Assembly: GCA_019358975.1 (NCBI GenBank)
Contig: JAHHIL010000003.1
Coordinates: 1 to 64,000 of the forward strand
DNA: 64,000 bases
Reading direction: 5' to 3'
Source: Trichocoleus desertorum ATA4-8-CV12
GTDB taxonomy: Bacteria; Cyanobacteriota; Cyanobacteriia; FACHB-46
The translations under genes and the position numbers were made by a program. This document shows positions 52,981 to 54,598 of the stretch, in pieces; position 1 is the first letter of the stretch; each line of letters starts with the position of its first letter. The notes below the pieces were generated by a model that searched no databases, was not told where the DNA came from, and worked only from the letters and a program-made list of their open reading frames with translations.

Positions 52981-53895
52981 TTACCAGGAAGACCCTGCTT
53001 CCTCACGGGGGCCAAGCACCATTTGCAGAATCATGGATTGTCCGCCCACTCGATGGTAGCGATCGGCCCAAGCCCGAATCACTTCATCCAGTTCCTGCAA
53101 GGCTTGATCCAGTTTTTCCGTAGGAATATCGAGTTCTTCCAAGACCCGCATCACCCGAGGCTGCTGATCAGCCCAATCTTTCATCAAGCGGAAGTAGCGA
53201 GCCGTGTCCTCCACCATAATGTAAGTGCGCTCCTCATCATCGGCTGGTGAGTAAGAAGAGCGGGTCAGGGCATAAAAGGGCATCCCCCAAGGTGACTCGA
53301 TGCGCGTGACTGTGCCAGAGTAAATCAAGCGTCGTTTGATATGTTCTGCTAATGCCTCGCTCAAGGGCATTTGACGGTCTGGGTCTAAATCCTCTTGCGA
53401 TCGCGTATGCAGAAACTCGATCAAGTCCATGAATTGAAAGGAATTGATCAGTTGAGCATCTGGCAAATTATCGGGCAGTTTTTGCTCAATCTGGCGTTTC
53501 TCTTCAGAGGTGAGGCTGGTACCAGGAACGCGCGATCGCCCAGGTTGCCAAGGATATTGCTCCAACCAAATGTAGGGAAACTGAATTAGATAGCGAGGTT
53601 CCTGAGACCCCAGCATCTTCAGCAGCTTACCTTCTGTTAGCGCTTGCCTAACTTCTTCAACAATCACCTTGACCCGTTTCGGCTCTATATGGTGCAAGTG
53701 TCCTGTCATACGCAGGTTCTGGCCTTGCTCCAAGTAGGTCATGTAGATAGCACACTTGGCGGCGGTAGCTGCCGCATCTAAAAAGGCTCCGTGCCGATGC
53801 CCACTAGTACGCATGGCACTAAATGCCAAATAAAGCATGATCTGATCCATGGCACTAGGGCTGAGACGTTTGATCAGATCTAGGTCGTTAGTCAT
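52981..53895 (-). CDS. hetR: Heterocyst differentiation master regulator HetR
   Basis: A 304-residue protein recognised by near-identity to HetR of Anabaena: [88 protein letters not shown] and [16 protein letters not shown]. Residues linked to function in Anabaena are present at the same numbers: Cys48, Ser152, Ser179, and Arg223 and Glu253/Glu254/Asp256, which contact the RGSGR peptide. The C-terminal tail (PREEAGSSW) is a few residues longer than usual. It binds DNA as a dimer and drives differentiation or colony patterning. patX is upstream on the same strand. Confidence 0.97.
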
Positions 53896-54424
53896 AGCAG
53901 TAGCCGTGCCCCGCAGGAGCGACTAGGTGAATATACAATTTGTGTATAAAAATTTGAGAAATTGGTAATAGTTCCACCTTGGTTGGACAACTATTGAGCT
54001 ACTCTCTTCGGTGAACACCCTTAAGCTTAAGGCATGCAGGTAGTTTAAGCACTAGTGATTTTTCCTAAACAAGGATTATTGCTCGGCACTTGGGAATAAA
54101 TAAGATTTCCTTCTCAGAAATAATTTTGCAGGAATTTGCTACTCCCGCCACTCGAACCTTTACATAAAGTGATGGCCCAACTATAGAGCGTTTAATTGAT
54201 CGCTGAAGTAATTTCTCTTCCTCAATTTAATCTAATTGAAAGGTTTACCCCTGTGGGTTTACCGCTCCTCCTCACCCGTAGTACTAAAATATATTGCTTG
54301 AATAGAAAAATAAGCTTTAGGTCACTAGTTTTTCAACCCAAAGCTGGTTTTAATTGATACTTTGCGAAGCGCTTAACTGGGCCGAATGGGAGGTCAAAAA
54401 TAGTTTGGTAGTTTAACCATACCC
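53896..54424. other. patX-hetR intergenic leader
   Basis: About 530 bases between patX and hetR, AT-rich, with no gene. It contains the 14-bp palindrome CCTTAAGCTTAAGG at 54019-54032 and two copies of GGTTTACC at 54242 and 54256. The hetR leader in Anabaena has several start sites, and the same may hold here. Nothing else stands out. Confidence 0.65.
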
Positions 54425-54598
54425 TCACCTGCCGCTGCCACGATGAGGCTCTACACCATTGTTTCTTTGGGATGCTAGAACTTCTTGAGTGTGAACAGAT
54501 AGCGAAGAATTGTGTAAGCTATAGCTAATAGGTTGCAAACTAAATGCCCAGGCAACCGTCAGCAAACCAACTGCTATGACAGATTGATAAGTGTGCAT
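54425..54598 (-). CDS. patX: PatX: RGSGR pentapeptide precursor
   Basis: The product is 57 residues from the ATG at 54598 (MHTYQSVIAVGLLTVAWAF); the frame continues upstream to 54649 with another possible start. A hydrophobic signal-type N-terminus (residues 7-20) is followed by a polar, poorly conserved middle and ends exactly in HRGSGR before the stop. RGSGR is the HetR-inhibiting peptide of PatS and PatX. PatX genes are known near hetR across filamentous cyanobacteria. The match is to the architecture: signal segment, short length, terminal pentapeptide and position beside hetR. It is expected to be exported and processed into the diffusible inhibitor. Confidence 0.85.
   Translation of the reverse strand: MHTYQSVIAVGLLTVAWAFSLQPISYSLHNSSLSVHTQEVLASQRNNGVEPHRGSGR

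Follow-up and report, generated by a model that had tools for sequence, protein, structure and literature searches.

What does a PatX-HetR pair do in a filamentous cyanobacterium that apparently forms no heterocysts? One more clean pair from such a host is described here, from Trichocoleus desertorum ATA4-8-CV12. The window, by which we mean the whole stretch of DNA analyzed (64,000 nucleotides; contig JAHHIL010000003.1, positions 1 to 64,000), carries hetR with a short open reading frame upstream of it, and the genes and their order were read directly from the sequence (Table 1). We regard the locus as very probably a patX-hetR regulatory pair of a non-heterocystous cyanobacterium, with the patX product as the inhibitor of HetR. 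Such a PatX-HetR pair is ordinary and already known; what is added here are details of the promoter and of the precursor.

Table 1. Positions of the patX-hetR features in the window
Feature	Position	Strand	Basis
hetR, HetR differentiation regulator, 304 aa	52981..53895	minus	NF009718, domains and structures
patX-hetR spacer, 529 bp	53896..54424	minus	
patX, 57-aa RGSGR precursor, stop codon included	54425..54598	minus	ATG open reading frame
HRGSGR codons, C-terminal hexapeptide	54428..54445	minus	direct reading; protein ends PHRGSGR-stop
Probable Sec-type signal sequence, residues 1-18	54545..54598	minus	hydropathy, inference
CTGAGATGGA, downstream inverted-repeat arm, predicted 5' untranslated region	54607..54616	minus	
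TCCGTATCAG, predicted -10 region and upstream arm of inverted repeat	54629..54638	minus	
TCCTGA, DIF1-like -35 element, 61 nt upstream of the patX start codon	54654..54659	minus	conserved in relatives

The first point to settle is whether the short frame is a gene. It lies 529 bp upstream of hetR on the same strand, and the RG[ST]GR motif that it contains is the only one in any of the six reading frames of the window; in first-order Markov sequence with matching composition, RG[ST]GR followed by a stop codon is expected ~0.00016 times per kb per strand. A hydrophobic stretch spans residues 7-20 (maximum hydropathy 2.39, within residues 7-17), and direct reading places AWA at residues 16-18, before a possible cleavage site. 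The initial annotation's description of a 57-residue frame with a signal-like N-terminus, ending in HRGSGR upstream of hetR, was thus borne out. Orthologues are present in both congeners, one (G001) with 57 aa ending in HRGSGR and the other (G002) with HRGSGR followed by 14 residues. Selection on patX is directly apparent from dN/dS values of 0.40 and 0.33 versus the two congeners. RGSGR is likewise present in further relatives, so that the absence from orthologues against which the initial annotation had cautioned was not encountered. Against the PatX equivalog NF047413 the frame scores 27.3 bits where 30 are required, whereas the PatX of G002 reaches 31.8 bits. Because the curated cut-off is not reached, patX would be skipped by automatic naming, as had been anticipated for so short a gene. 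A weak second NF047413 match in G002 (L086) was rejected, as it is without RG[ST]GR. Given the congener orthologues, the dN/dS values below 0.5, the hydrophobic N-terminus and a conserved promoter element, we take the 57-aa frame, on sequence evidence, to be a genuine patX despite its sub-cut-off score.

The identity of the downstream gene is straightforward. In a profile search its product matched the NF009718 equivalog at full length (601.5 bits against a cut-off of 489, residues 1-298), its domains are Peptidase_S48 and HetR_C, and the solved HetR structures 4hri/4yrv and 3qod align with it end to end. The DNA-contact and hood residues R62, E71, R74, R223, E253, E254, D256 and D270, whose roles in DNA contact or peptide binding have been described (PMC4649674), are all kept, including the four (Arg223, Glu253, Glu254 and Asp256) that had been named initially. 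Those RGSGR-contact residues that were examined are invariant in 35/35 HetR proteins with a linked patX. Separately, HetR carries a 5-residue C-terminal extension (window 52981-52996), AGSSW in the window protein; both congeners share it, and its form across the three is AGSSW or EGSSW.

Conservation of the TCCTGA promoter element was observed directly. It occurs at -57 to -64 from the ATG in 29/29 of the hetR-linked orthologues first compared and is invariant in 23/23 aligned patX upstream regions; the Nostocales patX copies sampled carry TCCGGA, not TCCTGA. Elhai and Khudyakov reportedly found, in 2018, that every patX gene has a DIF1 motif no more than 69 nt away. DIF1 is the TCCGGA found at -35 of heterocyst-induced promoters, where it is followed by a 17-bp spacer and then an extended -10 region (PMC6133370), and the window element is one mismatch away from it. 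By that geometry, the predicted transcription start of patX lies ~23-25 nt upstream of the ATG. The 529 bp between patX and hetR yielded no match to a promoter or a terminator beyond chance level. The PatX of Nostoc/Anabaena PCC 7120 (NF047413) is similar in length (56 aa versus 57 here), hydrophobic N-terminus, HRG[ST]GR motif and DIF1 promoter, but differs in having RGTGR and TCCGGA where the window has RGSGR and TCCTGA. The window gene differs further from the PCC 7120 case in lying 529 bp from hetR, in a genome without nifH over cut-off or a HetP family.

A covariance model of the promoter element (R1) was searched in 390 class genomes. The window genome has one match below E 0.9, located at patX; its remaining matches, at E 0.98 or higher, were regarded as chance. 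R1 was found in 134/390 genomes and HetR in 196/390, and co-occurrence of the two was observed in 131 (Fisher p ~2e-49), a figure that is partly circular because the training sequences of R1 came from ~20 of the genomes later searched. Eighty R1 elements are located 321-1660 nt upstream of hetR on the hetR strand, and a small RGSGR frame comes after most of the R1 matches that were fetched. NF047413 exceeds its cut-off in only 31/390 class genomes, and the promoter model recovers patX in ~100 hetR genomes that the curated protein model misses. The NF047413 cut-off is too strict outside Nostocales, and the distribution of PatX is much wider than that model reveals, extending to records titled Leptolyngbyaceae (L003, L012, L016, L019 and L020). 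A 2025 survey described a group of genomes that have hetR but lack patX (12%, pattern 0110) and a patP-hetR-patX pattern confined to few orders (PMC12756182); many of the genomes reported as having hetR without patX could be annotation gaps. Together with the HetR and PatX family matches and the orthologues, the promoter element upholds the patX-hetR pairing first proposed.

The host itself bears on what the pair may do. The window genome has a completeness of 99.98%, and the initial annotation had advised looking in it for hetP and nif genes. No nifH over cut-off was found (best match 221.5 versus 394 bits, perhaps a relative of protochlorophyllide reductase), and no HetP-family gene was found in the window genome or its two congeners (G000-G002); the family is present in 3/3 control genomes of family f32 and 1/1 of family f34. 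By these tests, the host would be a filamentous-type cyanobacterium that is not a heterocyst former, and that apparently cannot fix nitrogen. The missing nifH and HetP matches make a role in heterocysts unlikely, and for the same reason counts of heterocysts would be meaningful only in a heterologous host.

Work in Anabaena/Nostoc provides the template for a mechanism. In Nostoc, PatX is exported and cut by PatP, and the mature HetR inhibitor HRGTGR binds HetR at 88 nM and stops DNA binding (PMC12756182). By analogy, the 57-aa PatX of the window, transcribed from its putative DIF1-type promoter, would be exported via the N-terminal signal sequence, and a single cut before His52 would release HRGSGR. 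In the complex with the hexapeptide, the R223 side chain lies near the C-terminal carboxylate of the peptide (PMC4649674), and a tail-less precursor would therefore need only that one cut; as the window PatX ends at Arg, C-terminal trimming would be unnecessary and the free carboxylate would face Arg223. HRGSGR would then bind the hood domain of HetR (E253, E254, D256, R223, D270' and D278') and take HetR off DNA, so that patX would act as the inhibitor in an activator-inhibitor pair. PatS and HetN of heterocystous strains also act on HetR with an RGSGR peptide, although they are genes other than PatX. PatX has been described as the RG(S/T)GR partner that predates heterocysts (PMC7761841).

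A different function for the peptide is suggested by the only Leptolyngbya tested, Leptolyngbya sp. BL0902 (GFS31_32390-32400). This strain is also non-heterocystous and has patX directly upstream of hetR with a predicted DIF1 promoter (PMC11298460). Its two genes were read as apparently co-transcribed (PMC11298460), while those of the window are separated by 529 bp; the two loci are likened by description. Transcriptomes of its hetR, patX and double deletions suggest that PatX is largely independent of HetR (PMC11298460), which, along with the NF047413 score under cut-off, weakens the PatX-HetR model for the window. Under this alternative, patX is real but mainly HetR-independent here, with an inherited linkage to hetR and a different receptor or role for the RGSGR peptide; the lack of nifH over cut-off and of the HetP family in the window genome would agree with this. 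We consider this improbable, since the promoter element is tied genome-wide to hetR, and since the contact residues, which would have been free to drift had PatX left HetR, are kept in all 35 HetR proteins. HetR thus remains the preferred target of the window PatX.

The linkage of PatX to hetR, invoked initially for filamentous cyanobacteria, holds as close linkage for most non-heterocystous loci but not for Nostocales, in which patX is several kb or more away. Most non-Nostocales loci have patX closely linked to hetR once C-terminal tails are allowed; Nostocales loci have no RG[ST]GR frame within 5 kb upstream of hetR, and in several Nostocales patX is ~5-15 kb from hetR or on another contig. 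A count that made linkage appear rare (8/80 loci with RG[ST]GR-stop, ~10 with short tails) was discarded, as most relatives are tailed and the C-terminal filter was wrong. Tails after RGSGR range from 0 to about 26 aa and alternate even within a genus. PatX is tail-less in 10/35 non-redundant loci, and a HetR tree requires the tail state to have changed at least 6 times, once, with strong support, inside the window's own genus. The statement that the protein ends exactly in HRGSGR is therefore true of the window gene, but this ending is one state among several and not distinctive. The presence of tail-less and tailed PatX in one genus offers a natural test of the need for C-terminal trimming.

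The tail of G002 does raise the thought that the window frame is a chance open reading frame or the decaying remnant of a longer, tailed PatX, as the window DNA after the stop is similar to the 14-residue tail, with in-frame stops. This is highly unlikely in view of the dN/dS range of 0.33-0.40, the presence of an unaltered HRGSGR in three congeners, the intact promoter element and the repeated occurrence of tail-less PatX across the HetR tree. Least credible of all is initiation at the in-frame GTG at 54649 to give 74 aa: no stop interrupts the frame upstream of the ATG, and members of the genus share the sequence there, but the stretch is promoter, its length (the spacing from box to ATG) differs by non-multiples of 3 among relatives and so is not that of coding sequence, and the DIF1 geometry (PMC6133370) sets the predicted transcription start downstream of the GTG. 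The ATG at 54598 is accordingly favored as the likely start of patX.

An inverted repeat whose arms covary is likely present at the predicted transcription start. Its form in relatives is TCCGTATCAG - about 12 bp - CTGATACGGA, and in the window TCCGTATCAG / CTGAGATGGA; the window repeat (54607-54638) reaches from the predicted -10 to about +15. Arms matched better within species than when dealt between species (7.23 versus 5.89; 0/20000 permutations, n=63), with relatedness only partly controlled in this comparison, and 73.9% of cells were paired in register versus 27-44% when the arms were slid. A column shuffle gave only moderate values (paired cells 5/500; other measures 45-154/500). Mismatches comprised 25 G-T versus 31 A-C. 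An RNA hairpin was disfavored by this lack of a G-T excess and by the position of the 5' arm in the predicted -10 region, and for the same reasons a DNA operator would fit better. Some relatives have 2-8 RGSGR copies per PatX precursor. It is tentatively hypothesized, from sequence comparison and at somewhat less than even confidence, that the inverted repeat of non-Nostocales patX serves as an operator for a dimeric regulator of the HetR inhibitor and that, as PatX copy number (1-8) and tail change repeatedly, signal dose and processing need may be evolvable.

Several variants of the precursor were noted. Eight RGSGR copies with short spacers between them occur in the PatX precursors of L159 (G182:C3:333400-334200) and L184, and HetR in the genome of an eight-copy PatX has Ala in place of Glu254 (VLEALDI), a coincidence seen once. 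At L146, L152, L154, L156, L175, L177 and L120, PatX is a multi-copy precursor with two to four RG[ST]GR copies. At L183 (G379:C37:7900-10000), a PatX-like gene with four RASGR copies and a normal patX promoter element precedes the gene of a divergent HetR (74% identical) in which R223, E253, E254 and D256 are retained; the end of this HetR, CGDW, resembles the extension seen in the window. Several genomes of family f34 have 2-3 patX copies, and at L151 and L169 (G370 and G276 of that family) extra copies with RGEGR or RGGGR occur beside RGSGR copies. The HetR of G276 has Thr at position 254.
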